Source: Herbiconiux gentiana
GTDB taxonomy: Bacteria; Actinomycetota; Actinomycetes; Actinomycetales; Microbacteriaceae
Reading direction: 5' to 3'
DNA length: 64,000 bases
Assembly: GCF_024978135.1 (NCBI RefSeq)
Contig: NZ_JANTEZ010000002.1
Location: 62,001 to 126,000 of the forward strand
Each line of letters starts with the position of its first letter. The stretch's first letter is position 1. The notes beneath the pieces are model-generated. The model saw only the letters and a list, made by a program, of their open reading frames with translations, was not told the origin of the DNA and searched no databases. The translations under genes and the position numbers were made by a program. Shown in pieces: positions 7,943 through 51,312 of the stretch.

Positions 7943-8180
7943 TGCGTGCCCCCGGATCGCCGACCTGACTTACAACTGTGATGCAAGCTTACGAGGGGAG
8001 CGTGGACACCGACGGCACGCCGGATCCGCGGCACCTCAGCGTCTTCGGTCGCACCGATCCCGATGTTACACTTGTCGGCGACGCCAGCTCTCCTGCCATA
8101 GGAATCCGACCCATCGTCCCGCAGGCGTCGACCCCACCCATCGACGGCGTTGGTCGGTCCTCTTCGACATAAGGAGATAG
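7943..8180. promoter_or_regulatory. Divergent intergenic region between pyruvyl transferase and flippase genes
   Basis: These 238 nt separate two divergently transcribed polysaccharide operons and must hold promoters for both. The region is lower in GC than its flanks. AAGGAG at 8171-8176 is the ribosome-binding site of the flippase GTG. I could not fix a convincing -35/-10 pair on either strand, and an open frame at 7978-8172 has no ribosome-binding site or family resemblance. Confidence 0.5.
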
Positions 8181-9509
8181 GTGGTCACGTTTTCGCGCGA
8201 TTCGCGCAAGTCCCTCGGGAACGGTTTTTGGAACGCGGGCCAGCAGGGACTTTCACTAGCGTTGAACGCCGTGATCGGCATTCTGTTGGTCGTCGCAGTT
8301 CCGGTTCAGGAATACGGCCTCTACAGCTATGCGGTCGCGCTGTCGTCGATCGGCGTCGCTGTGATGTCGGCGGGTCTGACCGGGTTGGCCGTCCGCGAGC
8401 TGGTGCAGGACCGCGAAGCAAACTCGGCTATTGTCGCGTCGCTGACGCTGATCCGCGAGTTCTTCGCCCTGGTCGGCTTCCTCATCATCGCGGGCCTCAG
8501 CCTCACGAGTGGCGACGGTCTCGCGATCGCCGCCACTCTGCTGGCGTCTTCCGCGCTGTTCGGACGGGCGCTGAACGCTCCGGAGCTCTGGTTCCTCTCG
8601 CACCTGCGCAGCGGCAAGCCCGCGATCGCCAGGATCTCGGTCACCGTTGCTCTCTTCGGCGTCCGGCTCGCTCTTCTGGCCCTGTGGCCGAACATCTGGG
8701 TCATGCTGATCCTGTACTCAGCGGAGGGGCTCATCTCAAGCCTCATCATCATCGGGATGTACCTCCGAGACAAGGACTCACCGGGGTTCGCCCGTCCGAG
8801 CTTCCCCGCCATGTTCACGCTGCTCCGCCGGTCGTGGCCACTTATGCTGTCCAGTCTCGCCGACCAGGCGAACCTGAAGTCCAGTGTGATCGTCATCCAG
8901 GCGCTGCTCGGCCCGAAAGCGGTGGGCGTCTACGCAGCCGCGTCCCGGCTCAGCGAGATTTCTTTCTTCCTCCCCGTCGTGTTCATGAACTCCACCTTCC
9001 CCGTGCTGCTGAAGGTCCGGAAGGAGAAGGGGCCGGACAGCTCCGACTACCGGCGCATGCTCCAGCAGTCCTACGACCGAGCGTTCTGGATGGGCGTGCT
9101 CGTCGCAGTGAGCGTTATCGTCGTCGGCACGGTCGTGATCCGCGTCGTCTTCGGACCGGAATATGCCGACGCGGAACCTATTCTGTACATCCAGGCAGCG
9201 GCCTGCCCCTTCGTCTTCATGGGTGCCGTCTACTCGAAGTGGATCATCGCAGAGGGCTACCTCTGGTCGTCGCTGGTGCGCCATTCCTTCGGAGCAGTCG
9301 TCAACATCGCCCTCAACTTCGCCCTGATTCCGGTCATGGGCGTCATCGGGGCCGCCGTGGCGACTCTCGTCTCCTACATCGCCGCGTCGTTCGTCGCCAG
9401 CTTCCTGGGCCGTCGATCGCGGTTCGCCGGTGGCCAGATGGCTCGCGCCATCGTCTGGCCCGCGCGCCTGGTACGCAACCGCCTGCTTCGGCCCTCGATC
9501 GGAAAGTGA
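8181..9509 (+). CDS. Oligosaccharide flippase (Wzx-like, MATE/MOP superfamily)
   Basis: The 442-residue membrane protein has about twelve hydrophobic segments and an early NGFWNAGQQGLSLALNAV helix, a pattern of the polysaccharide-transporter flippases. It would translocate undecaprenyl-linked repeat units to the outer leaflet. The start is GTG 8181 with AAGGAG 4 nt upstream. The stop at 9507-9509 overlaps a possible GTG start of the next gene, so flippase, nitroreductase-like gene and glycosyltransferase form one plus-strand operon. With the Wzy-like gene and the two chain-length kinases it defines the locus as Wzx/Wzy-dependent. Confidence 0.92.
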   Translation: MVTFSRDSRKSLGNGFWNAGQQGLSLALNAVIGILLVVAVPVQEYGLYSYAVALSSIGVAVMSAGLTGLAVRELVQDREANSAIVASLTLIREFFALVGFLIIAGLSLTSGDGLAIAATLLASSALFGRALNAPELWFLSHLRSGKPAIARISVTVALFGVRLALLALWPNIWVMLILYSAEGLISSLIIIGMYLRDKDSPGFARPSFPAMFTLLRRSWPLMLSSLADQANLKSSVIVIQALLGPKAVGVYAAASRLSEISFFLPVVFMNSTFPVLLKVRKEKGPDSSDYRRMLQQSYDRAFWMGVLVAVSVIVVGTVVIRVVFGPEYADAEPILYIQAAACPFVFMGAVYSKWIIAEGYLWSSLVRHSFGAVVNIALNFALIPVMGVIGAAVATLVSYIAASFVASFLGRRSRFAGGQMARAIVWPARLVRNRLLRPSIGK

Positions 9510-9514
9510 CCCAC

Positions 9515-10582
9515 GTGAAGAAGAGCCTCGTGTCCCGCGGAATCTCTCGGAGCCGCAAAGTCGTCGGCCGATGGGCTCTGGCCGGAGGTCCCGTACGGCG
9601 GGGGCTTTACTACCGATATATCAGCGAGGCCTTCGGTCGCGAGGAGCGGGCCGTCGACGCCGGCATCACCGCCTATCATGGAACTCTCGGCACCGGCAAG
9701 GAGCTTTTTACGCTCCGGCGGAACGTGCACATGCTCGAAAAGGGCCTCACCATGCGCCCGCGGCGCGATGAGTTCGCCTTGGGCTACATCGGCTCGACTG
9801 TGCAGGCCTTCGCCGGCGTGCACCGCCTCGGCGCCGCGTCGGGCGTGGGCGTCGACGAGTCCCGTTGGATGCACACGGTGCTGACCGAGTACTTCGAGGC
9901 CACGTCGCGCTCGACGAATCCGAAGATCGAGCGCCTCCGCGCCACGTTCCGTGACCTCGAGCCGATCGAGCCCACCCGGGTATCGATCGCATCGGGACCG
10001 CACCTGCCGCAGGGCCTACCTCCCGCGGTGTCGATCGAGAAACTGACCGAGCTCGCGATGAATCGGCGCTCGGTCCGGTGGTTCACCGGCCAGCCCGTGG
10101 ACCGCACACTCGTCGACGCCGCGATGGCGGTCGCAGCGGAATCCCCGACGGCGTGCAATCGACAGCCCTACCGGTTCGAGGTGTTCGATGACCCGGAGAG
10201 CGTGCGCCGCGTGGCAGCCATTCCCATGGGCACCGCGGGATACGCGGAGCAGCTGAGCGGGATAATCGTCATCGTCGGAGACCTCTCCGCGTTCTTCGAT
10301 GAGCGGGACCGGCACCTGATCTATGTCGACAGCTGCCTTGCTGCGATGGGTCTCATCTACGGCCTCGAAGCCCAGGGTGTGGCCAGCTGCTGCATCAACT
10401 GGCCGGACCTCCCCGATCGGGACAAGGCGATCGCCGCATTGCTGGGTCTGCCCTCCCACGAGCGAGTAGTGATGCTCCTGGCCTACGGATACCCCGATCC
10501 GTCGGGGCTCGTGCCCTACTCGGCGAAGCGCCCCGTCGAGGCCGTTCGCCGGTACCGATCGCTGACACGGCCCGCCGACTGA
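9515..10582 (+). CDS. Nitroreductase-fold protein in polysaccharide operon
   Basis: The product is 355 residues from GTG 9515, chosen because GGAAAG lies 8 nt upstream; GTG 9506, overlapping the flippase stop, is an alternative. The C-terminal 190 residues have a nitroreductase/FMN-binding pattern: NRRSVRWFTGQPVDRTLVD, then a PTACNRQPYRF segment, and a late VMLLAYGYPD strand. The N-terminal 160 residues are specific to this subgroup and contain a conserved-looking NVHMLEKGLTM segment. Nitroreductase-like proteins occur in capsule and exopolysaccharide clusters, but their substrate is not known to me; sugar or lipid-linked intermediate redox is one guess. Between flippase and glycosyltransferase, a role in polymer synthesis is likely. 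Confidence 0.87.
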   Translation: MKKSLVSRGISRSRKVVGRWALAGGPVRRGLYYRYISEAFGREERAVDAGITAYHGTLGTGKELFTLRRNVHMLEKGLTMRPRRDEFALGYIGSTVQAFAGVHRLGAASGVGVDESRWMHTVLTEYFEATSRSTNPKIERLRATFRDLEPIEPTRVSIASGPHLPQGLPPAVSIEKLTELAMNRRSVRWFTGQPVDRTLVDAAMAVAAESPTACNRQPYRFEVFDDPESVRRVAAIPMGTAGYAEQLSGIIVIVGDLSAFFDERDRHLIYVDSCLAAMGLIYGLEAQGVASCCINWPDLPDRDKAIAALLGLPSHERVVMLLAYGYPDPSGLVPYSAKRPVEAVRRYRSLTRPAD

Positions 10583-11571: not shown

Positions 11572-13080
11572 TCAGTAGGCCCCATCGCGTGCCAGCACTG
11601 CCCGCGCAGTCCGCCAAAGAATCACGAGATCGCCTGTGAAAGACCAGTTCTCGACGTAATACAGATCCAGTCGAACGGTGTCCTCCCAGGAAAGGTTCGA
11701 TCGGCCAGACACCTGCCACAGCCCGGTGATGCCCGGCTTGACGAGGAATCGACGATGTACGTGCTGCTCGTACTGGTCGACCTCGGTGTCCAGCGGAGGT
11801 CGGGGGCCGACCAGTGACATGCTTCCCGAGAACACGTTGAAAAGCTGGGGCAGCTCGTCGAGGCTGAAGCGGCGGAGGAAGCGACCGATAGGGGTGATTC
11901 GAGGATCGTTCTTCATCTTAAATAGCACGGCATTCCCCTCAGCACGCTGCTTCGCGGCGAGTTCTTGCAGCAGGTGCTCCGCATCGACCACCATTGAGCG
12001 GAACTTCAGGATGCTGAAATGTGCACCGTTGTAGCCAACCCGCTCCTGCCGGAAAAAGACCGGGCCAGGGGAACTCAGGCGAATCGCCAGCGCGATGGCC
12101 CCTAGCACAGGGCTCAATAAGAGGATTCCTAGACCGGAGAAGAGGATATCGAAGGCCCTCTTGGTGAACTTCTTTGCTCCCTCGTAGCGCGGCATCTCGA
12201 CATGAATGAGGGGCAATCCGGCGACTGGTCGGGTGTGGATACGCGGACCACCGATATCCACCAAGCTCGGTGCCACGACAAGGTGCTGACGCCCCGGAGC
12301 CAAACTCCAGCTGAGCTCTCGGACACGTTGGGGGGGAAGCTCGTCGGCACTAGTGATGATGACCGTGTCCGCTCCTGACGCCTCGAGCGCCATCTGGACC
12401 TTGTCGAGGTTCCCGAAGATCGGCGCGCCGGTGCCCGGGAGCGTCGCACCAACGAGGGAGGTCGGAACGCAAGCGCCCACTACCCGATAACCGACGTCAG
12501 GACGACGCATCAGCTCGCGCCCGATATGAGACGCCGACGCTGCCGAACCGACAAGGAGCACTCGCGAACTAAAGGCACCATGCGCTCGGCGAGCGTGCAA
12601 CCATCGGCGCCACGCCCAGCGGCCCAGCAACAGTACCGCTATTCCTCCAGGGAAGGCGATGAGTATGTAACCCCGCGCTAGATCTACTTGGAACAGGAAG
12701 GCGACAATGGCGACCAGTCCGAAAAGACGTACGGTCGCATCGGCGATCAATCGGTATTCCTGCGAACCAGCCCCTATTACCCGGAACCCTCGGGTCCCGT
12801 AGATCTGCAGCGCGAGGAGCCAGGAAACGAACAGGACCACAGAGATCGTCGTATAGCTCACCGCCAAACTGCCCGACGACTCGCCCAGGCGGAGCTCGGC
12901 GGTGTCGAGCCCCAGCCAGAACCATTGCACCCCGAAGATCACGGCGGCGACGATCCCGACGTCCGTGAAGAACAGCCGGCGAGCGTAACCAATCTGCCAG
13001 GGGGCCGCGCGATTCGCTCGACCGGCGGCCCCGATGGTGCCGCCGCTCAAAGCGCCCTCTGAATAGGTTTCGCTGACCAT
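11572..13080 (-). CDS. Exopolysaccharide priming polyprenyl glycosylphosphotransferase
   Basis: The 502-residue protein has four to five N-terminal membrane helices, a central CoA-binding-like domain (VLLVGSAASASHIGREL at about residue 170), one further helix and a C-terminal bacterial sugar transferase domain with KRAFDILFSGLGI, RQERVGYNG, KFRSM, RRFSLDELPQL and LVGPRPP motifs. This is the WcaJ/CpsE architecture. It transfers a sugar-1-phosphate to undecaprenyl phosphate, starting each repeat unit. The gene is convergent with the glycosyltransferase (58 nt apart) and is the last gene of a minus-strand operon starting at the HPr-kinase-like gene. GGGGGATGA precedes the ATG at 13080. Confidence 0.95.
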   Translation of the reverse strand: MVSETYSEGALSGGTIGAAGRANRAAPWQIGYARRLFFTDVGIVAAVIFGVQWFWLGLDTAELRLGESSGSLAVSYTTISVVLFVSWLLALQIYGTRGFRVIGAGSQEYRLIADATVRLFGLVAIVAFLFQVDLARGYILIAFPGGIAVLLLGRWAWRRWLHARRAHGAFSSRVLLVGSAASASHIGRELMRRPDVGYRVVGACVPTSLVGATLPGTGAPIFGNLDKVQMALEASGADTVIITSADELPPQRVRELSWSLAPGRQHLVVAPSLVDIGGPRIHTRPVAGLPLIHVEMPRYEGAKKFTKRAFDILFSGLGILLLSPVLGAIALAIRLSSPGPVFFRQERVGYNGAHFSILKFRSMVVDAEHLLQELAAKQRAEGNAVLFKMKNDPRITPIGRFLRRFSLDELPQLFNVFSGSMSLVGPRPPLDTEVDQYEQHVHRRFLVKPGITGLWQVSGRSNLSWEDTVRLDLYYVENWSFTGDLVILWRTARAVLARDGAY

Positions 13081-14139: not shown

Positions 14140-15576
14140 TCAGCCCCTTCGTGAACTCGGCGCAACTACCGCTGCAGGCGCAGCCGGCATTCCCGAGACG
14201 TCCGGAGCCACCGCGTCTCCGTAGCCATAGCCGTAGCCGTAGCGTCCGTATCCGTACGAGTCGGGCCCGCGGGTCGGCAGCATCGTCAAAACCGTGCCGG
14301 CCAGCTTGGCTCCGACGTTGTGCAGCGAACTGACTGAGGCTCGTACCTGGCTTTTGTTCGCCCGGCCTGTCGCGACGACCAGGATGGCGCCGGCCGTAAG
14401 GTTGGCCAGGATGATCGGGTCCGTGACGGGCAGCACGGGCGGCGCATCGAAGAGGACGACATCGAAGGCGCTCTCCAGCGAGGCGATCAGTTTGGTCATG
14501 GCCGACGATCCCAGCAGTTCGCTCGGGTTTGGCGGGATCCGACCCGAAGGGAGGACGTAAAGGTTCGTCTCGCCCCAGCGCTGGATCACGTCACCGGGTT
14601 CGGCTCGATTCACGAGGACGTCCGTGAGTCCCGCGCTGCCTTCGACGCCCAGGTAGTCGGCGAGGCGGGGCTTCCGGAGATCCGCATCGACAATGATCAC
14701 ACGCTGGCCCGAGAGAGCAAGTGCGATCGCGAGATTCGCCGCTGTCGTGCTTTTGCCCTCACCGGGGATGGACGAGGTGAAGACGAAGCTGCGAGCATCG
14801 CTGTCCGTGCCGACGAACTGAAGGTTGGTGCGGAGGGTGCGGAACGACTCGGCGCGAGGGCTCATAGGGTCGTCCCTGACCACGAGCGGTCGCTCCGTTG
14901 TGGTGGGGTCGTGCACGATTCCGCCGATGATCGGCGCATCCGTGATGGCCTCGACGTCATGCTCGTTGCGGATCTTCGTGTCGAGTACTTCCCGCAAGAC
15001 GGCCAGCGCGAGCCCGGCGATCAGGCCGATGACTCCCCCGATGACGATGTTCAGTACGACATTGGGGGACGAGGGCGAACCGGGCACATAGGCCTGGGTG
15101 ATGACTGTTATCTTGACCGGGGTGACACCCTCGGCGGTTGCGGGAACGAGGTCGGTCACCACGTTTTCGAAGCTGCTCGCGACGGCGTTCGCCAGTTGAG
15201 CGGCGAGCTCCGGCGACGGGTCGGAAGCGGTTATCTCTACGATGACAGTGCCGGACGGCGACGATGCCGAGATATGCTCAGCAAGTGAGTCGACATTGGT
15301 GTCGAGATTCAGGGTGTCGATCACCGGCTGCAAGACGATGGGCGTCGTCGCGACGTCGGCATAGGACTGAACCTGCCCCTGGGCGAAGTTCTGCCCCTGG
15401 CTGAGATCGCTGACCGATCCCGTCGACTGCACGGACACGAACACCTTCGACGTTGCTTGGTACTCCGGTGCCTTCAGGATCGAAAAACCTGCGCCGACAG
15501 CCACTCCGACCAGAGTGAGAGCCACAATGTAGACCCATCCGCGGCGCAGGAGTCTGATGTAATCACGTAAGTCCAC
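14140..15576 (-). CDS. Polysaccharide co-polymerase / tyrosine autokinase (Wzz-BY-kinase fusion), copy 1
   Basis: The 478-residue protein has a Wzz chain-length domain between two membrane helices (about 15-34 and 173-195) and a cytoplasmic BY-kinase domain. Walker A is IPGEGKSTT (270-278), Walker A' VIIVDADLRKPR (293-304) and Walker B VVLFDAPP (373-380). A C-terminal tyrosine cluster (Tyr441, 443, 446, 448, 450, 452) is the expected autophosphorylation site. Such kinases set polymer chain length through cyclic phosphorylation, reversed by the Wzb-type phosphatase encoded at 19496. The single-chain form is usual in actinobacteria. A second copy lies 2 kb away on the opposite strand. Confidence 0.95.
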   Translation of the reverse strand: MDLRDYIRLLRRGWVYIVALTLVGVAVGAGFSILKAPEYQATSKVFVSVQSTGSVSDLSQGQNFAQGQVQSYADVATTPIVLQPVIDTLNLDTNVDSLAEHISASSPSGTVIVEITASDPSPELAAQLANAVASSFENVVTDLVPATAEGVTPVKITVITQAYVPGSPSSPNVVLNIVIGGVIGLIAGLALAVLREVLDTKIRNEHDVEAITDAPIIGGIVHDPTTTERPLVVRDDPMSPRAESFRTLRTNLQFVGTDSDARSFVFTSSIPGEGKSTTAANLAIALALSGQRVIIVDADLRKPRLADYLGVEGSAGLTDVLVNRAEPGDVIQRWGETNLYVLPSGRIPPNPSELLGSSAMTKLIASLESAFDVVLFDAPPVLPVTDPIILANLTAGAILVVATGRANKSQVRASVSSLHNVGAKLAGTVLTMLPTRGPDSYGYGRYGYGYGYGDAVAPDVSGMPAAPAAVVAPSSRRG

Positions 15577-15667: not shown

Positions 15668-16582
15668 CTAGGAGCGACCAGCCGGCCGCTTCGTGATTAG
15701 CCGAAGGCCGTCTAGTGCTCCCCGTAGTACCCGGTGGACTCGCGACGCCGTGAGGTTATGACCGATCCACTCCGGGTGCTCTTGCAGGAGCGACTCTTGC
15801 GGTGGCCACAGCAGTTTCGCCAGCTCGCGAGGCCGATTCTGCCATGGCACCCCACCGAGATAGCTCAACCACCGGCCCGTTCGGGACTCCACTGATGTGC
15901 GCCGATGCCAATCTCGAAGCGCACGTTTGTCACCCACCCGCCCGGGAGCGACAGGTAGACCCGCTGCCAGGAGAACAGGTGCCAAGGTCTCCGAACAACC
16001 GGCTCGGGCAGCGAATTGAACGACTTCCGCGCCTAGTGCGGAGTCGCGGCGGAGGCGCTCCACCAGTTGACCGAGCTCGACCTTGCTGCGCGGCGCATTC
16101 GGCTTGCGTAAGCCGTGCAGTCCGAGGATGGCTGCGCTCGCCGCGGTGTCCGGAATGAATGCAGGTGAGTGCGCCACCTCAATCTGCTCGCGTCGCTGCC
16201 AGAGAAGGTCGAAGACTTCACCGGGAGGCGCGAGGAAGCCCGGGAATCGATGATGCACGTCGATGTCACAGGGCCACCGCTCGTGGACCAGCGTCACTGA
16301 ATGCATTTCGAGCTTGTCCGCCGTCCACAGCGTGACTCGAGGCTGCCACCCCTCCTTGGCGAGGGCGCTGATGGCCCGCTGAGCCGCCGCCGGGTGCGCG
16401 ATCACGTCTACATCAGCGTAGGTACGAGCAGCTCGCAGGCCTTGGAGCTCAGCGGCGAGCCCTTTGATTATCAGAGCGTCGACGCCGGCCGTGCCGAGCC
16501 GTTTCGCGACGAGACCCGTCACAAGAGGAACGGCTTCGCTTCCGCGCAGGTTTAGGGGGGACGCTGCCCGAAGCGCTGTCAT
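15668..16582 (-). CDS. Nucleotidyltransferase family protein (NTP_transf_5-like)
   Basis: The 304-residue product has the opening pattern of the uncharacterised nucleotidyltransferase family: LIIKGLAAELQGLRAARTYADVDVIAHP at about residues 37-65 (a KG---- motif followed by an acidic D-D pair), then IDVHHRFPG at about 108. These features fit the nucleotidyltransferase fold with two metal-binding Asp. Its ATG overlaps the stop of the HPr-kinase/PqqD gene as ATGA, so the two are co-translated. In lasso-peptide and some exosortase-linked polysaccharide loci, members of this family sit beside HPr-kinase-like and PqqD-like genes. The substrate here is unknown. It could modify a sugar, a lipid carrier or a peptide. 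Confidence 0.8.
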   Translation of the reverse strand: MTALRAASPLNLRGSEAVPLVTGLVAKRLGTAGVDALIIKGLAAELQGLRAARTYADVDVIAHPAAAQRAISALAKEGWQPRVTLWTADKLEMHSVTLVHERWPCDIDVHHRFPGFLAPPGEVFDLLWQRREQIEVAHSPAFIPDTAASAAILGLHGLRKPNAPRSKVELGQLVERLRRDSALGAEVVQFAARAGCSETLAPVLLAAGLPVAPGRVGDKRALRDWHRRTSVESRTGRWLSYLGGVPWQNRPRELAKLLWPPQESLLQEHPEWIGHNLTASRVHRVLRGALDGLRLITKRPAGRS

Positions 16583-17682
16583 TGCCTACCCGAACGCAGC
16601 ACCCCGGCCTCGACGAGCTCGACTAGGGCTGCCGCAACCGCTGCTCGCGGATCGAGCCCCATCGGGACGCCGTACGTCTCGACGACCGAGAGGCTTATAG
16701 CTTCGGTTGACACCGCCGATGCGGCCATGTCCCAGATGAGCGGACCGATGCCGTCGAGAACCCTGACGGTCGAGCCGTGGAGAAGCATGATACGGCCGTC
16801 GACTCGCACAGCGTCTGTAGCGGCGGTTCGACAGTACCAACCCGGTGGTAGGGGTCCGTCTTCTCCGGAAGGGTCGACGGCCCCCCAGTCCTCCGGCGCG
16901 GCAGCCTCTCCCACCTGACCTTCGAACCACGACGGGACCGAGGACGCCTCCGCGTAGGTAAGGGTTCTCACACCGCCGATTCGGGTAATCAATTCCGCTA
17001 GTTGGCAGAGGGGTCGGTCGAGCTCGGGCAGGTAGCTCATCTCGGGAATCAGAGCCGTCATCGCATCCAGCAGTGGTAGATCGACAGCGAATGGAGACTC
17101 GCTCGAGCCCGGGACCCGCTTCAGGATATGGATGGATGACAGGCTAAGTGGGGCGTCCGGCAACTCAAGAAGGCCGAGGCCGGACGGAGGAGTCTGAATC
17201 TTTGCGCCGAAGCCAAGGATGCGCGACAGCGGCTTCCGATATGGGAGAACACGACCGTTGGCATCGGTTCCAATGGTCTCGTCCGTCACATAGCCGAGGT
17301 AACGGGCGAGGTGCCCAACGAGTGTCGTCTTGCCGGTCCCGGACGGTCCGACGAACGCGTGCACTTGCCCGTCCTCCGCAGCCACACCGCACGCATGGAA
17401 CATCAACAGCTGAGAACGCCGAAACTCGATCGCTGCAAGCGTAACGCGGCTGGTGAGCAGCGCGGCCGCCTCGCGGGCATCCGCTACTACGACGTCGAAG
17501 GGGCCGGGAACTGAAGAAGGAGGATTGGCCCGGATGTAGATCGACACGTCAGCCGGGCCAGCATGTGCCGCCGCGTCAACCCAGCCGTATGAGATCTCTT
17601 GAACCGTCGGCCCTGAGACTGAATCGTCGAAGTTGAGCGCGACGCGAACGCCTATCGCGCTAACCAGGAGCTGAGCCGCCAT
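16579..17682 (-). CDS. HPr-kinase-like ATPase fused to C-terminal PqqD-like domain
   Basis: The 367-residue protein starts at ATG 17682. Residues about 90-230 resemble HPr serine kinases: LLMFHACGVA, then a P-loop GPSGTGKTT (112-120) and YVTDETIG (131-138). The last 85 residues match the PqqD layout: VRVDGRIMLLHGSTVRVLDG, IGPLIWDMA, then a helical region ending ALVELVEAGVL. PqqD-like domains bind leader peptides of ribosomal peptide products; HPr-kinase homologues phosphorylate the product in paeninodin-type lasso peptides. The fusion is co-translated with a nucleotidyltransferase and sits in an exopolysaccharide operon, divergent from the second tyrosine kinase. No precursor peptide gene was found nearby. 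Function in polysaccharide synthesis is inferred from context only. Confidence 0.82.
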   Translation of the reverse strand: MAAQLLVSAIGVRVALNFDDSVSGPTVQEISYGWVDAAAHAGPADVSIYIRANPPSSVPGPFDVVVADAREAAALLTSRVTLAAIEFRRSQLLMFHACGVAAEDGQVHAFVGPSGTGKTTLVGHLARYLGYVTDETIGTDANGRVLPYRKPLSRILGFGAKIQTPPSGLGLLELPDAPLSLSSIHILKRVPGSSESPFAVDLPLLDAMTALIPEMSYLPELDRPLCQLAELITRIGGVRTLTYAEASSVPSWFEGQVGEAAAPEDWGAVDPSGEDGPLPPGWYCRTAATDAVRVDGRIMLLHGSTVRVLDGIGPLIWDMAASAVSTEAISLSVVETYGVPMGLDPRAAVAAALVELVEAGVLRSGRQ

Positions 17683-17843: not shown

Positions 17844-19496
17844 ATGGAACTTCGGTCGTACGCCGCAATCCTGCGAGCGCACTGGCTGGCGATCGTCGCT
17901 CTGCTGTTGCTGGGTGGCGCCGTCGCCTTCGGGTGGTCCCTGCTGCAGCCCAAGGTCTACCAGGCGGATGCGAGCGGCTACATCTCGGCGGGCGCTGCGG
18001 GAGACACGGGCTCGGCGCTGGTCGGAGACAACCTTGCCAAATCGAAGGTCAAATCGTACATCGACATCGGAACCTCACGCGCGGTCGCCCAGCACGCCAT
18101 CGATGAACTCGGCCTGGTCGCGACGCCCGAGAGCCTCGTTCAGCGCATCAAGGTATCGAACCCCGACGACACCGTGCTCCTCGAAGTCACAGCCCTCGCG
18201 GGAACCCCGACCGACGCGCGGGACCTCGCCGAAGCCTGGTTGCGGGGCATTCAAGAGCAGATCGACAGCATTGAGACCCAGTCGGGCGCCTCGGCCGATG
18301 GCTCGACGGACAGCATAGTCAAGCTCATACCGCTCGATTCCGCGACGCTTCCCGATTCACCGCTCTCGCCCAATACCCGCCTTGCCATCGTGATCGGTCT
18401 GGTGGTGGGTCTGGTCCTGGGCATCGCCTTAGCCTTCGTGCGACACGCTTTCGACCGTCGCATTCGCGGCGCCGACGCGGTTGAGTCGCAATTCGGCATC
18501 TCCGTGGTGGGCTCCATCCCCGTCGACCGTCGGTTTACCGACCAGGACCGGCTGGTGGCGATGGAAGGTGCGACCGACTACTCCCGCGTGGATGACGACG
18601 ATGTCGCCGTGGCGGAGTCCCTCCGCGAGCTCCGTACCAACCTGCAGTTCATGAACGTGGATGACCCTCCTCGGGTAATCGTTGTGACAAGCCCCCTGCC
18701 TGGCGACGGTAAATCTACAACGATTGCAAACCTCGCGATCGCGCTAGCTGCCGGTGGCCAGAACGTGATCCTGGTGGATGCGGATCTGCGCCGGCCGACC
18801 GTTTCCACGACGTTCAACCTGGTCGGCGGCGCCGGACTGACGGAGGTCCTCGCCGGCCGGTCAGAGGTGACAGATGTGCTCCAGCCCTGGGGCACGTCCG
18901 GGCGCCTGTTCATTCTGGCCGCTGGCAAGACCCCGCCGAACCCGAGCGAGCTCCTCGGGTCGGAGCGCATGCACAGCCTGCTCGCCGAACTATCGCAATT
19001 CGCGATCGTTCTGATCGACGCACCGCCTCTCATCCCCGTCACCGATGCGGCGATCCTCACGCACAACACGGACGGCGCTCTCGTCGTCGCGAGCGTGGGT
19101 AAAACGACCTATGAGGCACTTGCCAAAGCATTGGCCAACCTCGAACGGGCGAATGGTAAAGCTCTGGGCGTCATCCTCAACCGGGTGCCCAGAAAGGGCG
19201 GTGGCTATTACGGCTACCAGTACCGGGGGGATTACACCGCAGTCAGCCGCGCGGATAGCGTCGACCCTGCCACTGAGGCGCTGCCCGGGCTGTCAGGGAC
19301 ACCCACCGCAATGGCGGCACCGCCACGGTCCGAGACTTCATCGCGGCAACCTGGTTCCGAACCGCCTCCCCCGACGTTCGACGACCTCTTAGCGGAGCCC
19401 GACGCGAACGAGTCCGAAGTCCGGACGGCACCGGGCGAGATCCCCGCCAGGTCGCGGCGCGAATTGCGCTCCGCTCGATCCCATCGAGGAGTCTGA
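17844..19496 (+). CDS. Polysaccharide co-polymerase / tyrosine autokinase (Wzz-BY-kinase fusion), copy 2
   Basis: The 550-residue product has the same design as the copy at 14140: Wzz domain between helices at about 14-33 and 180-200, Walker A LPGDGKSTT (285-293), A' VILVDADLRRPT (308-319), Walker B IVLIDAPP (388-395) and a tyrosine cluster (Tyr455, 456, 458, 460, 464). A Pro-rich tail of about 80 residues follows, longer than in copy 1. ATG 17844 is preferred because GGGGGAA precedes it; GTG 17832 overlaps that site. The phosphatase gene starts within the stop codon (TGATG), so kinase and phosphatase are produced together. Confidence 0.94.
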   Translation: MELRSYAAILRAHWLAIVALLLLGGAVAFGWSLLQPKVYQADASGYISAGAAGDTGSALVGDNLAKSKVKSYIDIGTSRAVAQHAIDELGLVATPESLVQRIKVSNPDDTVLLEVTALAGTPTDARDLAEAWLRGIQEQIDSIETQSGASADGSTDSIVKLIPLDSATLPDSPLSPNTRLAIVIGLVVGLVLGIALAFVRHAFDRRIRGADAVESQFGISVVGSIPVDRRFTDQDRLVAMEGATDYSRVDDDDVAVAESLRELRTNLQFMNVDDPPRVIVVTSPLPGDGKSTTIANLAIALAAGGQNVILVDADLRRPTVSTTFNLVGGAGLTEVLAGRSEVTDVLQPWGTSGRLFILAAGKTPPNPSELLGSERMHSLLAELSQFAIVLIDAPPLIPVTDAAILTHNTDGALVVASVGKTTYEALAKALANLERANGKALGVILNRVPRKGGGYYGYQYRGDYTAVSRADSVDPATEALPGLSGTPTAMAAPPRSETSSRQPGSEPPPPTFDDLLAEPDANESEVRTAPGEIPARSRRELRSARSHRGV

Positions 19497-20143
19497 TGCT
19501 GGAAGACCTTTTCGGGCGTCCGGCTGCGCCGGAAGGCTCACCTCTGATCCTCTTCGTCTGCACGGGCAACATCTGCCGCTCACCGTTGGCGGAAAAACTG
19601 TTGCGCGAACGCCTGGAACAATTCGATCCGACAAACCGGATCGAGGTGGCCAGTGCAGGCCTCCACGCCGTCGTGGGGGCCCCGATGGAGCCGGAGCCGG
19701 CCGCAATCGGAGAGCGCCACGGGGGTGTCATGGCGCACGAAGCTCGCCAGCTCACCGCAGCGATAGCGCGTAGGGCGTCGGTAATCCTGACTATGACGAA
19801 AGCGCAACGGGCGGAACTCTCACAGGAGTTTCCGTTCGCGCTGAAGCGCACATTCACTCTGGTCGAGTTCGTGCGCTTACTTGCCGAGGTTCCGGACAAG
19901 GTCGCGCCGCCGTCTGCCCAGAATGGGCGCACCCTGTTCGACACGTCGCTGGACGCGTCGCGCTACCGGGGGTCCGTCGTGGCTCATCCGACCGACGACA
20001 TCGAGGATCCGTATCGGCGGTCGGCGGAGACCCATGAGCGGGTCGGTGAACGGATTGTGACACTGGCCGATGAGCTCGCCGCCCAACTTACGGGCAAGTC
20101 GGGTGGCACAGCTCAGGATGCGGGCCCGCCTACGGCGAGATGA
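19496..20143 (+). CDS. Low-molecular-weight protein tyrosine phosphatase (Wzb-like)
   Basis: The 215-residue protein carries the phosphatase loop CTGNICRS (Cys22 to Ser29), the C-X5-R signature of this family, near the N-terminus and the catalytic general-acid motif DDIEDPY with Asp171-Pro172 in the second half. It would dephosphorylate the tyrosine cluster of the tyrosine kinases and so complete the phosphorylation cycle that controls polymer length. The ATG overlaps the kinase TGA by one base. At 215 residues it is longer than the roughly 150 usual for the family, with an insertion of about 40 residues between helix and DP loop and an extended tail. Confidence 0.94.
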   Translation: MLEDLFGRPAAPEGSPLILFVCTGNICRSPLAEKLLRERLEQFDPTNRIEVASAGLHAVVGAPMEPEPAAIGERHGGVMAHEARQLTAAIARRASVILTMTKAQRAELSQEFPFALKRTFTLVEFVRLLAEVPDKVAPPSAQNGRTLFDTSLDASRYRGSVVAHPTDDIEDPYRRSAETHERVGERIVTLADELAAQLTGKSGGTAQDAGPPTAR

Positions 20144-20795
20144 AGCGTACTTCTGTAGTCACTATTCAAACTAAAGATCCCGCCGCGGTACCAGATCCTG
20201 TTCGGTCAACGCGCGGCACGGCGGCTGGAGCGATCTCCGATCTGCGAAGGCCTTCATCCGGGCGATCCATTGCGGGAGCAGCGCAGACATCGTCCATCAC
20301 TGACACCTCTGCCAGTTTCTGAACAGATCGCCCTCCGGCATCGAATTTCTACGCGCTGCGTCACCGCGCATACGTGGCGGGCACCACGTGAGCATCGTAT
20401 GCAGGCAACAGTTCTGAATACAGCGGGGCTCACCCCGGCCGTTCTAGCTTCTGGCCGACAACTACGACACTCGCCGGCAACACTTCGCCTGCTACGTGCA
20501 CCCGCTTCTGCCACTATCCGACGGTCACCTGGGCACACCGGCCGACGCCTTGGTCAGCATCAATCTCATCGCATGTGGTCGACGCGGCCCCCACTCCCCT
20601 TCATGCACCGTCCCCTTGTGCCGCGGGCGTGCAGACGAGGCACGAGGCAGTCAAGGGAGACTGGGGCTGACCTTGATCGACATGTCTGCTCCACCAGCGG
20701 TCGCGATGAAGATGATCATGGGATGATGACGAGCACGCTACGAAACGCACGATTGATTCGGTCCTGACGCTTCGCTCGGCTCGATCTGGCGCGAA
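20144..20795. other. Gene-poor stretch with no recognisable product
   Basis: This 652-nt stretch between the phosphatase gene and the G5-protein gene has weaker codon-position GC bias than its surroundings. Open frames at 20140-20322, 20270-20767 and 20254-20538 (minus) have unusual, Arg/His/Ser-rich compositions, no credible ribosome-binding site and no family resemblance. I see no tRNA, transposase remnant or strong hairpin. It may be degenerate sequence at the edge of the polysaccharide locus. Confidence 0.6.
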
Positions 20796-22243
<1,448 letters not shown>

Positions 22244-22795
22244 CTAGTTCAGGCTGACTCCGAGGCCCGAGACGTCGTCGTTGTCCGACGAGACCATGAT
22301 GCCGAGGAGCGGCTTCGAGCTGCCGATCGGGGCCGACCACGTGATGGCAGGCATGCTGATGGTCGCGCCGTTGCTGATCGCGGCGTGGATGAAGACCGTC
22401 GATCCCGGGCTCGATGTGACCAGCACCCAGCCAGCGGTCTGGTAGGCGGTGACGACGTCGGTCGTCACTGTCCAGGATGCTGTCTTGTTGTTGTAGATGG
22501 TGATGGTGATCTCGCCGGAGTCGAGTCCGGGAACGCCGGCACTGTTGTAGTTCAGCGCCCCGCCCTCGTACGTCGCCGTGCGCTGGGTGGCGCTCGTACC
22601 GGTCGCGGCGAGCCCGCCGCTGACGAAGGCCGTCGGGCTGTCGAAGACCTCGCTGGCGGCAGCGAGGGGGGTCGCGACGGCGAGGGCGATGACCGGCGCG
22701 GCCCAGGCCGCTGCAGTGGCGACCTGGCGGCGGGTGAGGCCACGGGTCTCGGCCAGGAGGGTGGCGTCGGAGTCGTGGGTGGGTGTGACGGTCAT
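22244..22795 (-). CDS. Small Tat-exported surface protein, cargo 1
   Basis: The 183-residue protein has a twin-arginine signal peptide: LTRRQVATAAAWAAPVIA followed by LAVATPLAAAS, with probable cleavage after the Ala-rich stretch near residue 48. The mature part is about 135 residues, Ser/Thr/Gly-rich, without Cys, and looks all-beta. No domain is recognised. GAGGAC lies 5 nt before the ATG. It is divergent from the signal peptidase gene that opens the lepB-tatA-tatC operon, and its signal peptide is nearly identical to those of the products at 25153 and 38434, so I infer it is a dedicated cargo of this export module. Confidence 0.85.
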   Translation of the reverse strand: MTVTPTHDSDATLLAETRGLTRRQVATAAAWAAPVIALAVATPLAAASEVFDSPTAFVSGGLAATGTSATQRTATYEGGALNYNSAGVPGLDSGEITITIYNNKTASWTVTTDVVTAYQTAGWVLVTSSPGSTVFIHAAISNGATISMPAITWSAPIGSSKPLLGIMVSSDNDDVSGLGVSLN

Positions 22796-22988
22796 GGCGG
22801 GTCCTCAAATGTGGAAGTTCGATGAATCGCGCGGGGCCGGAAGAGCCCTCACGCGCGAGTCGAAAGTAACGACGGCGACGAGTTCGATCAGATGAACGAC
22901 TGGTTTTTCACCCTCGGCTTCACCCTCCGCAGGGGTCCGGAGAAACCGGATACCACGCGGTGTCACACCTTCTATTAAGGTGAGCGCT

Positions 22989-23714
22989 GTGACCGAGCCC
23001 ACCGAACCCCTGACGGCGACACCGGCACGGGTGTCTGTGCTGCGTCGGCTGGCGCGGAATCCGCTCGTAAATCTGGTCGCCGCCTTCGTCGTGCTCGCGC
23101 TCGTGCAGACGTTCCTGGTGCGGTTGTACTCGGTTCCGTCGGGGTCGATGGAGTCGACGCTCGAGGTCGGCGACCGCATCCTTGTCAATCGACTCGCCTA
23201 TCTCGGGGGCGGGCCGGCCGACGGGGACGTCATTGTGTTCAACGCCTCGACGGCCTGGGAGCCGTCACCGCCGGCGGAGACCAACCCGTTGAAGGCAGTG
23301 GCCAGGTGGGTCGGCGGGCTCGTGGGAATCGGGCCGACCAACGATCACGTCCTGGTGAAGCGGGTGATCGCCGGCCCCGGGGAGACGGTCTCGTGCTGCG
23401 ATGCGAAGGGGAGGATCACGGTCGACGGAACGGCGATCGACGAGCCGTACATCCTCGACGACGTGCCGTTCGAGGCCGGGGTGCTGGACTGCTCGACCGT
23501 GCCGGCTTCGCTGCGGTGCTTCACCCCGTTCACCGTTCCCGACGACCAATACTTCGTGCTCGGGGACCATCGCTCGGCGTCGAGTGATTCGATCGCCCAG
23601 TGCCGGGGGGCTCCGACGACCGCGACGTGCGTGCGGCTCGTCGACCGGTCGGGCGTTGTTGGCCACGTCTTCAGCATCGTCTTCCCGTTCACCCGGCTGG
23701 GAGCAGTCTCATGA
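22989..23714 (+). CDS. lepB: Signal peptidase I
   Basis: The 241-residue protein has one N-terminal membrane helix (about 26-45), the catalytic serine box VPSGSMESTL with Ser53, the general-base lysine in HVLVKRVIAGPGE (Lys124), and the late GDHRSASSDS box. It removes signal peptides at the outer face of the membrane. I chose GTG 22989 because AAGGTGAG lies 5-6 nt upstream; GTG 22980 overlaps that site. It is the first gene of an apparent operon with tatA (44 nt downstream) and tatC, between two genes for Tat cargo proteins, which suggests it processes those cargos. Confidence 0.94.
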   Translation: MTEPTEPLTATPARVSVLRRLARNPLVNLVAAFVVLALVQTFLVRLYSVPSGSMESTLEVGDRILVNRLAYLGGGPADGDVIVFNASTAWEPSPPAETNPLKAVARWVGGLVGIGPTNDHVLVKRVIAGPGETVSCCDAKGRITVDGTAIDEPYILDDVPFEAGVLDCSTVPASLRCFTPFTVPDDQYFVLGDHRSASSDSIAQCRGAPTTATCVRLVDRSGVVGHVFSIVFPFTRLGAVS

Positions 23715-23758: not shown

Positions 23759-24061
23759 ATGCTCGGAAATCTCAACGGCTGGCACCTGATCATCGTTCTC
23801 GTGGTCATCCTGCTGCTGTTCGGCGCGACCCGTCTCCCTGCCCTGTCGAAGGGGCTGGCGCAGTCCATGCGCATCTTCAAGCAGGAGACCAAGGCTCTTC
23901 GGGATGACGACAAGCCCGCTGAGGCTGTGAACACCACGCCGCCGGCAGCGAACGCCCCGACCACCTCGACGACCGACGTCGCTCCCCCGCTCGAGACGCC
24001 GCGTGTCACGCCGGTGCACTCCGACGCGGTGCGCAGCGAGCCCGACTCCAGCAAAAGCTGA
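23759..24061 (+). CDS. tatA: Twin-arginine translocase subunit TatA
   Basis: The 100-residue protein begins MLGNLNGWHLIIVLVVILLLFGATRLPALSKGLAQSMRIFK in pattern: a short membrane helix, the FG hinge with the conserved Phe-Gly pair, then an amphipathic helix and a Thr/Pro/Asp-rich tail. This is the TatA pore-forming subunit layout. It starts 44 nt after lepB and ends 2 nt before tatC. The short amphipathic helix fits TatA better than TatB; the actinobacterial TatB-like partner is not in the window. Confidence 0.95.
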   Translation: MLGNLNGWHLIIVLVVILLLFGATRLPALSKGLAQSMRIFKQETKALRDDDKPAEAVNTTPPAANAPTTSTTDVAPPLETPRVTPVHSDAVRSEPDSSKS

Positions 24062-24063
24062 CG

Positions 24064-24912
24064 ATGGTCGCCATCGGAGCGCGGAGCTCGCGCTCGGGCG
24101 GCGAGCGCGCGCCGCGCACGCCTCGTTCGAAGCGCCCTGCTGATGGGCGGATGTCGCTCGGCGCCCACCTGATCGAGCTGCGGAAGCGGCTCTTCCTCGC
24201 CGCACTGGGCATCGTGCTGGGCATGGTCGTCGGATGGATCCTCTCCGATGCCGTGCTCCAGGCGCTGACGGTGCCGATCCAGGAGTTGTCCGATGCGCAG
24301 GGGCGCACGGCATCGCTGAACTTCACCGACATCTCGTCGGCGTTCGATCTGCGAATTCAGATCGCCTTCACTGTCGGTGTGGTCATCTCCTCCCCGGTCT
24401 GGCTCTACCAGATCTGGGCGTTCGCCGTTCCCGGCATGAAGCGGCGGGAGAAGCAGTACGCGGTCGGCTTCGTGCTCTCCGCGGTGCCGCTGTTCCTCGC
24501 CGGCTGCGCCGCGGGCTGGTTCGTGATGCCGCACATGGTGGTGCTGCTGACCGGGTTCGCGCCGCAGGATACGACGGCGCTCATCTCGGCGCGTACCTAT
24601 TACGACTTCGTGCTGAAGCTCGTGCTCGCGATCGGTATCGCGTTCGTGCTTCCCGTATTCCTGGTGCTGCTGAACTTCGCCGGGGTACTCACGGCCAAGG
24701 CCATCTTGAAGTCGTGGCGGATCGCCATTCTGGTGATCACCCTCTTCACCGCCATCGCCACTCCGGCGGCCGACGTGATGTCGATGTTCCTGCTCGCGGT
24801 GCCCATGGTGCTGCTGTACTTCGGCGCAGCCGGGATCGCGTACATCCACGACCGCAGGGTCGCCAAGCGCAATCGCGCCATCGACGCGGAACTGGGTCTG
24901 GATCCCGCCTGA
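24064..24912 (+). CDS. tatC: Twin-arginine translocase receptor subunit TatC
   Basis: The 282-residue protein has a basic N-terminal extension of about 28 residues, then MSLGAHLIELRKRLF (the conserved H-LELR-R cytoplasmic motif that contacts the signal peptide) and six membrane helices, with VWLYQIWAFAVPGMKRREK in the middle and a late AIATPAADVMSMFLLAVPM segment. It recognises twin-arginine signals and assembles with TatA. The start may instead be ATG 24151, which would remove the extension; no ribosome-binding site decides it. Together with lepB and the adjacent cargo genes it forms a self-contained export module. Confidence 0.95.
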   Translation: MVAIGARSSRSGGERAPRTPRSKRPADGRMSLGAHLIELRKRLFLAALGIVLGMVVGWILSDAVLQALTVPIQELSDAQGRTASLNFTDISSAFDLRIQIAFTVGVVISSPVWLYQIWAFAVPGMKRREKQYAVGFVLSAVPLFLAGCAAGWFVMPHMVVLLTGFAPQDTTALISARTYYDFVLKLVLAIGIAFVLPVFLVLLNFAGVLTAKAILKSWRIAILVITLFTAIATPAADVMSMFLLAVPMVLLYFGAAGIAYIHDRRVAKRNRAIDAELGLDPA

Positions 24913-25152: not shown

Positions 25153-25605
25153 ATGGACAACAACATCAGCGCGCCCGGAATCTCCCGACGCCAGGTGCTC
25201 GCCACGTCAGCCTGGGCCGTGCCCGTCATCGCTGTCGCCGTCGCGACCCCGCTCGCCGCAGCCAGTGAGGCGCCCGAGCCGAAGTACACGTTCGCCGGCA
25301 TCTCGGCGACCGGTAACCCCGGCGAGACCCTCGTCGACGACGCCCGCCCGGGCGCTCGTGTTCGCACCGACCCCGAGGGCAACCCGGTCGCCGGCCAGGT
25401 CGTCTCGTTCGTGTACGTGTCCGGCCCGTTCACGATGAACGAGAACACCGCCACCACCGACGGCGAAGGCGCTGCCCGCGTCGGCGTCACCTTCGCCCCC
25501 GACGCGGAGCCGGGCATCCTCGGCGCCATTCAGGCGTTCTGGACCGGCCCCGACGGCGTCAAGTACGACGACACCGTCGACGTCTCGGTCAACCCGGCGG
25601 CCTAG
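25153..25605 (+). CDS. Small Tat-exported Ig-like protein, cargo 2
   Basis: The 150-residue product starts at ATG 25153 and has a twin-arginine signal, ISRRQVLATSAWAVPVIA followed by VAVATPLAAAS, almost the same as in the protein at 22244. The mature part of about 105 residues has the layout of an invasin-type bacterial Ig domain: GETLVDDARPGARVRTDPEG, a GQVVSFVYVSGP strand, TTDGEGAARVGVTF and a closing DDTVDVSV strand. It contains no Cys. It follows tatC and precedes a strong hairpin, so it probably ends the export-module transcript. Its role is likely structural or adhesive at the cell surface. Confidence 0.85.
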   Translation: MDNNISAPGISRRQVLATSAWAVPVIAVAVATPLAAASEAPEPKYTFAGISATGNPGETLVDDARPGARVRTDPEGNPVAGQVVSFVYVSGPFTMNENTATTDGEGAARVGVTFAPDAEPGILGAIQAFWTGPDGVKYDDTVDVSVNPAA

Positions 25606-35657: not shown

Positions 35658-35981
35658 ATGATCGAGAACGGAATGCCGGTCGACGGCGCACGGGCCGCGC
35701 GGCTCCTGCTCGACGCGGTGGTGTCGCAGAGCGGCGACGCCACGACCGACGAGAACACGCGGGCCATGACGACGGCTCTCGGCGAGCTGATCGGCGGGTC
35801 CACGGCGCCGGACACGGGAGACGTGGTGGGAGCATCCGTCGTCTGCCTGTCGTGGCTGGCGGGGCATCTCGCCGCGGCGACCCGGCGCTCACCCGAGGAG
35901 GTCGTGGCCGATCTGCGGGAGTTCATCGACCTCACGACCGCCCGGGAGGGCGTGACGGGCGTCGATAGAGTGGAGGAGTGA
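35658..35981 (+). CDS. Small helical protein translated with a PqqD-like protein
   Basis: The 107-residue acidic product is predicted mostly helical (ARAARLLLDAVVSQSGD, VVGASVVCLSWLAGHLAAAT, PEEVVADLREFIDLTTA). It has no signal peptide and no recognised domain. Its stop overlaps the GTG of the PqqD-like gene as GTGA, so it is probably a functional partner of that protein. A TACGCT box at 35628-35633 and GGGGG upstream of the ATG could serve expression. Confidence 0.75.
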   Translation: MIENGMPVDGARAARLLLDAVVSQSGDATTDENTRAMTTALGELIGGSTAPDTGDVVGASVVCLSWLAGHLAAATRRSPEEVVADLREFIDLTTAREGVTGVDRVEE

Positions 35982-36325
35982 CGAGCTACCGCATCGGGCC
36001 CGACGTCGCGTGGCACAGTTCCGACGACGACGGTGGCGCGGGCGGTAGCGGTGGTGCGGGCGCGGGTCGAGTGGCGGTGCTCGACCTGGCGGAGGTGGGG
36101 GCGGTTCCGTTCGTGCTCGAGGGGTCGGCGGCGGCCATCTGGACGGCGGTCTTCGAGCACGGTGATGAGGGCGCCGACGGCGTGGTCGCCGCGGTGGCCG
36201 AGCGGTTTGACCTCGAGCCCGCTGACGTTCGCGCCGACGTCGATGCGTTCCTCGCCGAGCTGGTGCAACGGCGGCTGATCGAGGCGGAGCCCGACCCGGC
36301 GGCGGCTAGCCCAGACCCGACCTGA
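35978..36325 (+). CDS. Stand-alone PqqD-like protein
   Basis: The 115-residue protein shows the PqqD pattern: YRIGPDVAWHSSDD, a Gly-rich insertion, RVAVLDLAEVGAVPFVLEGS, AAAIWTAVFEHGDEG and a helical end ADVDAFLAELVQRRLI. PqqD-like domains are recognition elements that bind leader peptides of ribosomally made, modified peptides, though many stand-alone actinobacterial members have no known precursor. No radical-SAM or other modifying enzyme is adjacent. The nearest candidates are the coupled 107-residue protein and the MauE-thioredoxin gene 1 kb away. It is convergent with, and overlaps by 20 nt, the AraC-family gene. Confidence 0.8.
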   Translation: MTSYRIGPDVAWHSSDDDGGAGGSGGAGAGRVAVLDLAEVGAVPFVLEGSAAAIWTAVFEHGDEGADGVVAAVAERFDLEPADVRADVDAFLAELVQRRLIEAEPDPAAASPDPT

Positions 36326-38433: not shown

Positions 38434-38949
38434 TCAGCTGGCCGAGCAGAGGATCAGCGTGCTGCTGACGTTGCCCGCGGACTTCCCGCCGGTGGCGGTG
38501 TAGCCGGCGGGCAGCGTGGAGACCGCGTTCAGCTGGAACGCGACCGAGATCGACAGCGTGGTGCGGAACGCGATGGTGGCTCCGGCCGGCAGCGCCGACG
38601 TGAGCGTGATCTGACGGCTCGTGCCCGACAGCACCGCGACCGAGGCCGTGCCACCCGAGACGGAGAAGACGCCGATGTTGGCGACTCCCGAGCCCGAGAT
38701 GACGACGGTGGTGCCGACGGGCAGCGGCGTGGTGGGGCCTGCCTGCAGGGTGAAGCCGGGGCCGAGCACGCCCAGCGTGCCGCAGGTTCCGCGCAGCGCG
38801 TAAGCGCCGACGTCGACGATCGAGGCGGCGTGCGCCGGGGTGGCGACGGCCAGGGCGATGACGGGAACCGACCAGGCGGCACCCTTCATGACGGTGCGGC
38901 GGTCGAGGCCCTTCTCGGCGTCGATCGGCGTGTTCTTGTTCTGCAGCAT
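38434..38949 (-). CDS. Small Tat-exported protein with two cysteines, cargo 3
   Basis: The 171-residue protein from ATG 38949 (GAGGGGG 4 nt upstream) has a twin-arginine signal LDRRTVMKGAAWSVPVIALAVATPAHAAS, close to those of the proteins at 22244 and 25153. In the mature part of about 130 residues, only two Cys appear, one near the start (RGTCGTLG) and one in the penultimate stretch (LILCSAS), well placed for one disulfide. The region is strand-rich and Ser/Thr/Gly-rich. The gene is 155 nt upstream of the MauE-thioredoxin gene on the same strand. Confidence 0.85.
   Translation of the reverse strand: MLQNKNTPIDAEKGLDRRTVMKGAAWSVPVIALAVATPAHAASIVDVGAYALRGTCGTLGVLGPGFTLQAGPTTPLPVGTTVVISGSGVANIGVFSVSGGTASVAVLSGTSRQITLTSALPAGATIAFRTTLSISVAFQLNAVSTLPAGYTATGGKSAGNVSSTLILCSAS

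Positions 38950-46770: not shown

Positions 46771-46774
<4 letters not shown>
46505..46774 (+). CDS. Small conserved-looking protein
   Basis: The 89-residue product starts at TTG 46505, with AGGAG 5 nt upstream supporting this rare start. It reads MADWHPVQTLHANSWIFPRPG and continues with a basic WAFRAVSWRRPRHLIGAGYF segment. I do not recognise the family. Its stop codon overlaps by 4 nt the stop of the convergent subtilase gene (CTAG shared). Confidence 0.68.

Positions 46775-51312
<4,538 letters not shown>

Follow-up and report, generated by a model that had tools for sequence, protein, structure and literature searches.

A kinase-PqqD fusion and a nucleotidyltransferase in an actinobacterial polysaccharide locus co-occur with a Tat-like N-terminal protein tag

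Closest described systems and the domains of the pair

Three described systems come closest to a pair of overlapping genes in a 64,000-nucleotide stretch of Herbiconiux gentiana DNA, hereafter the window (NCBI RefSeq assembly GCF_024978135.1, contig NZ_JANTEZ010000002.1, positions 62,001 to 126,000 of the forward strand). The pair encodes an HPrK/PEPCK-like kinase with a fused C-terminal PqqD/RRE domain (P0002, 16579-17682 on the minus strand, 367 residues) and an NTP_transf_5 nucleotidyltransferase (P0001, 15668-16582, minus strand, 304 residues), and its co-occurrence with a short N-terminal tag on exported-looking proteins suggests an undescribed protein-tagging system. PEP-CTERM/EpsH is the nearest system in logic, the tailoring of lasso peptides in chemistry, and the HPr-rel-A cassette in gene set. 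No description of the gene set or of the tag was found among the papers listed by text searches of the openly licensed literature.

In the portion of the PEP-CTERM/EpsH source drawn on here (PMC1569441), many diverse exported proteins, several per genome, share one short tag, this tag tracks one enzyme across genomes, and the setting is a polysaccharide locus; the same pattern is seen here, with an enzyme set as the tracked partner. The tag of the present locus is, however, N-terminal and resembles a twin-arginine translocation (Tat) signal rather than a C-terminal PEP motif, and its hosts are Gram-positive. Its partners are a cytoplasmic kinase, PqqD domains and a nucleotidyltransferase, whereas the same portion pairs PEP-CTERM with a membrane protein of proposed transpeptidase function.

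Regarding lasso peptides, the excerpts of the two sources used here state that phosphorylation by the kinases PadeK and PsmK, which have a conserved H-K-D-D motif, falls on a conserved C-terminal Ser, that PsmN is needed for the hexoses on this Ser, with transfer by PsmN itself left open (PMC9266682), and that PqqD-type B1 proteins bind leader peptides (PMC7533575). An HPrK-type kinase (as PadeK/ThcoK and PsmK), a nucleotidyltransferase-like protein (as PsmN), a PqqD-type leader binder and a conserved candidate Ser target recur in the present locus. In contrast to the lasso loci as described in those excerpts, no cyclase motif or short precursor was found here, the kinase and PqqD parts are fused, and the proposed targets are whole exported proteins.

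The likeness to the HPr-rel-A cassette lies in a standalone PqqD protein of the window (35978-36325, plus strand; PF05402, E 8e-11), whose closest NCBIfam match is TIGR04353, the HPr-rel-A system PqqD family peptide chaperone, at 26.3 bits, below the cut-off of 35. The locus departs from that cassette in its fused kinase-PqqD protein, its tagged proteins and its actinobacterial hosts. TIGR04352, which we take to be the kinase family of the cassette, is not among the best 25 of 82 NCBIfam matches of P0002.

The original prediction, made from the DNA letters alone, had named a P-loop HPr-kinase-like domain in P0002. This is borne out by the AlphaFold2 model (predicted local distance difference test, pLDDT, 94.3; predicted template modelling score, pTM, 0.91), which has the PEPCK fold (Foldseek, best E 3.5e-7), and by residues H96, K118, D134 and E135, which are invariant in 20/20 and 32/32 aligned members of the kinase family. 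HPrK itself is absent among the best 50 Foldseek matches of the model, and Pfam gives P-loop families and a weak PEPCK match (E 5.9e-4), with no match to HPrK. The modelled protein thus combines the PEPCK/HPrK fold, the P-loop and the His/Lys/Asp residues, and kinase activity is predicted for it. A plasmid search with P0002 returned no match. Divergent kinase homologues adjoin a dcd-like gene, named from its sequence, in Rothia (L132, L135, L136, L140, L141, L142) and Curtobacterium (L137), possibly forming a separate subfamily.

The PqqD domain, which had been placed in residues 280-367 (approximately nucleotides 16582-16845, minus strand), is weak in the single protein, where PF05402 matches residues 300-362 with E 0.046, below the cut-off. 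It is nevertheless secure at the level of sequence comparison for the family, though sub-threshold in P0002 alone: PF05402 is matched at E<=0.01 by 11 of 20 aligned members, and the C-terminal part of the family profile matches the solved PqqD/RRE chains 9x8z (E 8.9e-6) and TbiB1 5v1u (E 1.2e-4), the top matches of that profile among solved chains being P-loop matches to ABC transporters. A profile-profile comparison with hhalign relates the domain to the standalone PqqD family at 97.7%. The border of the domain agrees with a natural fission, since in Demequina and some Nocardioides it is a separate small open reading frame (ORF) directly behind the kinase gene. By analogy with described PqqD proteins, leader-peptide binding is predicted for it. 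In one locus (L087:9815-11281), the kinase apparently ends in two tandem PqqD-like domains, as judged by eye.

The partner P0001 was correctly recognized as NTP_transf_5-like, since it passes PF14907 with E 1.8e-10 and 41.3 bits against a cut-off of 31.2. Co-translation had been proposed as well, and the start of its gene indeed overlaps the stop of the P0002 gene as ATGA. The KG and DxD motif residues (K40, G41, D57, D59) are invariant in alignments A5 and A6. The predicted model (pLDDT 90.6) has MenT1 (E 3.1e-6), LnuA (1.4e-4), ANT(2'') (1.1e-3) and FKRP (3.7e-3) as Foldseek neighbours, and so resembles MNT-type nucleotidyltransferases and, more weakly, FKRP. Identity to these folds is ~11-18% among the matches listed, and their substrates are, as far as known, unrelated. 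The P0001 gene escaped a codon-based gene caller in the window, a possible sign of atypical codon usage.

The N-terminal tag and its co-occurrence with the pair

Neighbourhood clustering brought out the standalone PqqD protein and a set of exported-looking proteins with a common N-terminal motif of ~30 residues, with the consensus RR-x-V-x-x-GAAW-S-x-P-V-I-x6-P-x-A-A-A-S. Three of these tagged proteins are encoded in the window. The first (22244-22795, minus strand, 183 residues; tag match G000:C10:84643-84747) is followed by a second (25153-25605, plus strand, 150 residues; G000:C10:87174-87272), which shows an Ig-like Big_1 match below the cut-off, and by a third (38434-38949, minus strand, 171 residues; G000:C10:100812-100916), which has the highest tag score within the genome. 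By a six-frame regular expression, the tag was found in the window itself and at 49 of the 99 other kinase loci; also among the 101 sequences searched is L043, a tag-free stretch from upstream in the same genome.

Across 104 distinct tagged proteins, the conserved block begins ~12 residues ahead of the Trp and ends with a Ser that follows the Trp by 17 residues. This closing Ser is present in 95% of the tags, and past it conservation equals background; RR, W and the first P were demanded by the regular expression, and their conservation is not independent. The RR motif, the hydrophobic core and an AxA site make the tag a Tat-like signal as read from its sequence, and export is predicted. From RR to the end, the proteins have a median of 175 residues; the C-terminus is LPxT-like in 1/104, and a C-terminal hydrophobic stretch occurs in 5 of the 98 complete ones. 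Scans of tagged proteins with Pfam (ten proteins) and NCBIfam (nine) gave no informative family, the sole scores above a cut-off being WYL_2 and DUF2850 in L180, where no individual stretch passed.

Tagged proteins number 1-30 per genome and 5-30 in the window's genus, with their genes scattered over the genome. Closer linkage is apparent in Demequina, where up to six tag genes come after the kinase and PqqD genes within the fetched stretch (L102), and in Arthrobacter L075, where the order is tag gene-PqqD-kinase-BY-kinase-nucleotidyltransferase, as likewise in Pseudarthrobacter L083. Arrays of four to six tag genes behind the kinase and small PqqD genes were noted in the Demequina loci L102, L110, L113 and L185, the last being a record that matches L113. 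In other genomes the standalone PqqD family, too, recurs next to either the kinase or the nucleotidyltransferase; 75 loci contain 16 gene pairs in which a PqqD gene lies on the same strand as the nucleotidyltransferase gene and within 60 bp of it.

Among the 16 genomes of the genus, the tag is present in 10/10 kinase-positive members (kinase E<1e-60; a weak match in G002, 2.6e-4, was not counted) and in 0/6 kinase-negative ones. In the family (299 genomes), 29 have both, one has the kinase only, three the tag only and 266 neither, which amounts to 32 genomes with the tag and 30 with the kinase. The same 30 are found by profile and by single-sequence search, where they are the genomes counted at E<1e-20 among 111 listed; the remaining listed genomes have E 3e-6 or weaker, mostly from short matches around the P-loop. 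The order set (198 genomes) contains 26 with both, 4 with kinase only, 4 with tag only and 164 with neither, leaving aside two weak partial kinase hits (G329 and G351; with them, 26/6/4/162). Subtracting the window's family from the order set leaves 23 with both, 4 with kinase only and 4 with tag only. Fisher's exact p is 8e-36 for the family table and 3e-24 for the order table, with genomes taken as independent.

The third component follows the same pattern. A nucleotidyltransferase of the kinase-linked type (E<=2.3e-55) is present in 30/30 kinase-positive genomes of the family and nowhere else among the 299, including three genomes (G129, G183, G273) in which it lies on a different contig from the kinase. 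Tags are also enriched near the kinase, with 24/154 within 25 kb compared with 1.8 expected; seven of these 24 are rows of the tag profile, and 17 are left without them. Kinase-positive and kinase-negative species occur together, among the matches listed, in eight genera (g1, g2, g14, g17, g31, g70, g73, g85); as read by eye from the lists, six are fully concordant for kinase and tag, the exceptions being g31 (G175) and g2 (G099, G211).

The tag profile (A3) was built from 26 tags, two each from G000 and G001, one each from G004, G005, G015, G255, G087 and G268, and 16 from named loci, and its rows come from 5/10 of the genus positives and 6/29 of the family genomes with both kinase and tag. 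When genomes that supplied rows are removed, the genus stands at 5/5 vs 0/6 and 23 family genomes still have both.

The polysaccharide setting and alternative targets

The pair had been described as embedded between two tyrosine kinases of a polysaccharide locus, a setting that is fully retained: BY-kinases with Wzz and kinase parts lie on either side (14140-15576, minus strand, and 17844-19496, plus strand, the latter beside the kinase gene), with a polyprenyl glycosylphosphotransferase (11572-13080, minus strand) and a Wzx-like flippase membrane protein, named from its sequence (8181-9509, plus strand), nearby. The setting is recurrent. Of the ~20 kb stretches from 19 relatives, 18 contain a BY-kinase and 14 the nucleotidyltransferase. 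A kinase gene was called in 75 of 80 named actinobacterial loci (all but L100, L105, L124, L125 and L128), and these 75 contain a BY-kinase in 50, the nucleotidyltransferase in 35, the tag in 33 and a signal peptidase in 19, while a separate PqqD ORF occurs in 36/80. Such counts are lower bounds, because many stretches extend less than 10 kb per side; they include the duplicate records L046/L063, L054/L073 and L061/L101, and L090, L099, L103, L117, L085 and L113 correspond to genomes in the G sets.

This setting is the basis for an alternative in which the pair regulates polymer assembly, the kinase acting as a Ser kinase/phosphorylase for the adjacent BY-kinase or its phosphatase and the tagged proteins being passengers of a surface programme. 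Consistent with it, 34/75 named loci have a BY-kinase no further than 300 bp from the kinase gene, and in nine Demequina loci the kinase N-terminus is fused to a tyrosine-phosphatase-like domain with Asp at the position of the catalytic Cys. Furthermore, an extra BY-kinase accompanies the pair in 9/10 kinase-positive members of the genus: each of the six kinase-negative members has one BY-kinase, and the positives have two, except G003 with three and G008, a fragmented draft, with one. The alternative nevertheless leaves the PqqD domains and the matched nucleotidyltransferase unexplained, as well as the absence of the tag in 24 of 27 BY-kinase-bearing kinase-negative genomes, and we consider it improbable.

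That last count derives from 70 hand-picked control genomes, in which three tag-only family genomes were included on purpose. A BY-kinase (TIGR01007) is present in 36/36 kinase-positive and 27/34 kinase-negative genomes of this set, and only three of those 27 have tags, so that a polysaccharide locus alone is insufficient for the tag. The view of the tag as a mere marker of such a locus was dropped after this control. The proposal that the pair modifies a lipid-linked sugar, or a cofactor of polymer synthesis that is a peptide, found no positive support. The presence of the pair follows the tagged exported proteins and not the polysaccharide locus as such.

A related possibility, also contained in the original prediction, is that the target of modification is an undetected small peptide or a polysaccharide carrier, in the manner of ribosomally synthesized and post-translationally modified peptides (RiPPs). 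Kinase, PqqD and nucleotidyltransferase genes do accompany lasso precursors elsewhere, as stated in the excerpts of PMC9266682 and PMC7533575. However, among 1191 ORFs of 20-90 codons within 5 kb of the kinase in 95 loci, no widely common family was found, the widest being present in six loci and confined to one taxon. Nor did the Asn-synthase motif SGG[LIVMFTA]DS occur in the 1953 proteins called from the window and 100 further stretches. These results make this reading very unlikely and agree with the earlier view that this is not a lasso locus; Pfam scans of the window ORFs noted no lasso leader protease of the transglutaminase type, for which no aimed search was made. The statement that no precursor is visible accordingly holds for small peptides, but not for the genes of the three tagged proteins, which had been overlooked, as had the standalone PqqD gene and, at 22-25 kb, the genes for the signal peptidase and TatC.

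Proposed modification of tagged proteins and neighbouring genes

Beyond the observed domains, catalytic residues, gene linkage, genome-wide co-occurrence and tag conservation, tag recognition, Ser phosphorylation, decoration, the export route and attachment are each predicted steps. In the cytoplasm, the RRE/PqqD domains, both kinase-fused and standalone, would bind the tag as a leader peptide, and the HPrK-type kinase would phosphorylate a Ser, the simplest candidate being the near-invariant one at the end of the tag. A nucleotide or a sugar might then be attached to the phosphorylated Ser by the nucleotidyltransferase, as has been reported for PsmK/PsmN on pseudomycoidin. The modified protein would leave by Tat and be cut by the signal peptidase, after which its decorated N-terminus could be attached to the polysaccharide of this locus or sorted together with it. 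The leader-like N-terminus, the two PqqD proteins and the closing Ser suggest a chemistry like that of lasso tailoring, carried out on exported proteins before Tat.

A functional link between pair and tag is probable. The chances are about even that the kinase-PqqD fusion and the nucleotidyltransferase form the core of a many-to-one protein-tag system with PqqD recognition, Ser modification and export, and direct modification of the tagged proteins by the pair may be argued for and against with equal weight. It is a tentative and rather doubtful proposal that this is an altogether new type of protein modification, in which the Tat-type signals double as RiPP-style leaders recognized by PqqD domains, and kinase and nucleotidyltransferase place a phospho-sugar or nucleotide on the tag-end Ser of up to dozens of folded exported proteins, thereby linking them to the coat; the full chain, with the closing Ser as the target, is unlikely to be correct in every part.

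If true, RiPP-type enzymes would here make up a Gram-positive actinobacterial counterpart of PEP-CTERM/exosortase. The kinase-PqqD-nucleotidyltransferase sets of polysaccharide loci would gain a substrate class, leader-guided modification would reach beyond small peptides to entire exported proteins, and a genetically encoded means of decorating proteins would be at hand. The pairing of kinase and tag would predict substrates for each genome.

An alternative concerning export arises from the genes next to the tags. A signal peptidase I of family S26 (22980-23714, plus strand), a TatA-like small membrane protein, named from its sequence without a Pfam match (23759-24061, plus strand), and TatC (24064-24912, plus strand; PF00902, E 6.7e-60) adjoin a tag gene in the window's genus. 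The tag could be merely a taxon-specific Tat signal that matches the pair through a shared export set, with the pair acting on another target. In line with this, the window's genus has TatC and a TatA-like gene close to the kinase. The signal peptidase occurs in the stretches of 8/9 same-genus relatives and, within 300 bp of the kinase gene, in 11/75 named loci. Taking into account that TatC was called in only 7 of 99 other stretches, and that the signal peptidase occurs in a minority of the named loci (19/75) as against a kinase-nucleotidyltransferase match in 30/30 genomes, this explanation is distinctly unlikely.

Several points weigh against a tagging system centred on the pair. The fourth catalytic residue of the kinase is Glu in 32/32 members, vs the Asp reported for the lasso kinases (H-K-D-D), the equation of E135 with the last Asp of that motif being made from the alignment by eye. 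Kinase but no tag was found in G175, G409, G422, G461 and G487, where a relaxed tag search around the kinase also gave no convincing tag, and tags but no kinase in G099, G177, G211, G318, G379, G392 and G404, for a total of 12 discordant genomes across the family and order sets. Nucleotidyltransferases of a more distant kind (E 1e-15 to 5e-40) occur in 15 kinase-negative genomes (e.g. G036, G124), none of which has the kinase or the tag. The Rothia, Kocuria and Curtobacterium homologues (nine loci) are without nucleotidyltransferase, BY-kinase or tag in the fetched stretch.

Other reservations concern the searches. The tag profile derives from tags in the vicinity of kinase genes, and the profile for the nucleotidyltransferase from copies linked to the kinase, which biases both to that type. 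This origin could have inflated tag matches in kinase-positive genomes, but alone it does not explain the absence of the tag in kinase-negative relatives. Scoring in the genome searches is confined to the best candidates of a first look, the genomes are not independent, and a signal peptidase or TatC might track the tag equally well.

Near the standalone PqqD gene, a gene for a 107-residue protein of family c39 (35658-35981, plus strand) overlaps it as ATGA; all seven members found of this family are within the window's genus. An AraC-type regulator (36306-37145, minus strand) adjoins the PqqD gene on its other side, and a MauE-type membrane protein (37262-38278, minus strand), with a thioredoxin-like C-terminus judged by a weak AhpC-TSA match, adjoins the third tagged protein. 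Both the AraC-type and the MauE-type gene families were seen to recur near the kinase in other genomes.

The polysaccharide locus further includes a low-molecular-weight tyrosine phosphatase (19496-20143, plus strand), as well as acyl- and pyruvyltransferases. An 810-residue frame (8150-10582) was rejected as a fusion gene and corresponds to the flippase-like gene followed directly by a nitroreductase-family gene (9506-10582), which is present in 1/19 relatives' stretches (L047). Two plus-strand ORFs look spurious as genes, namely 20270-20767 and 21845-22825, the latter antisense to the gene of the first tagged protein. Further downstream, a subtilisin-like protein of 1526 residues (46771-51351) shows weak matches to type VII secretion system (T7SS) mycosin and LPXTG-anchored peptidase models.

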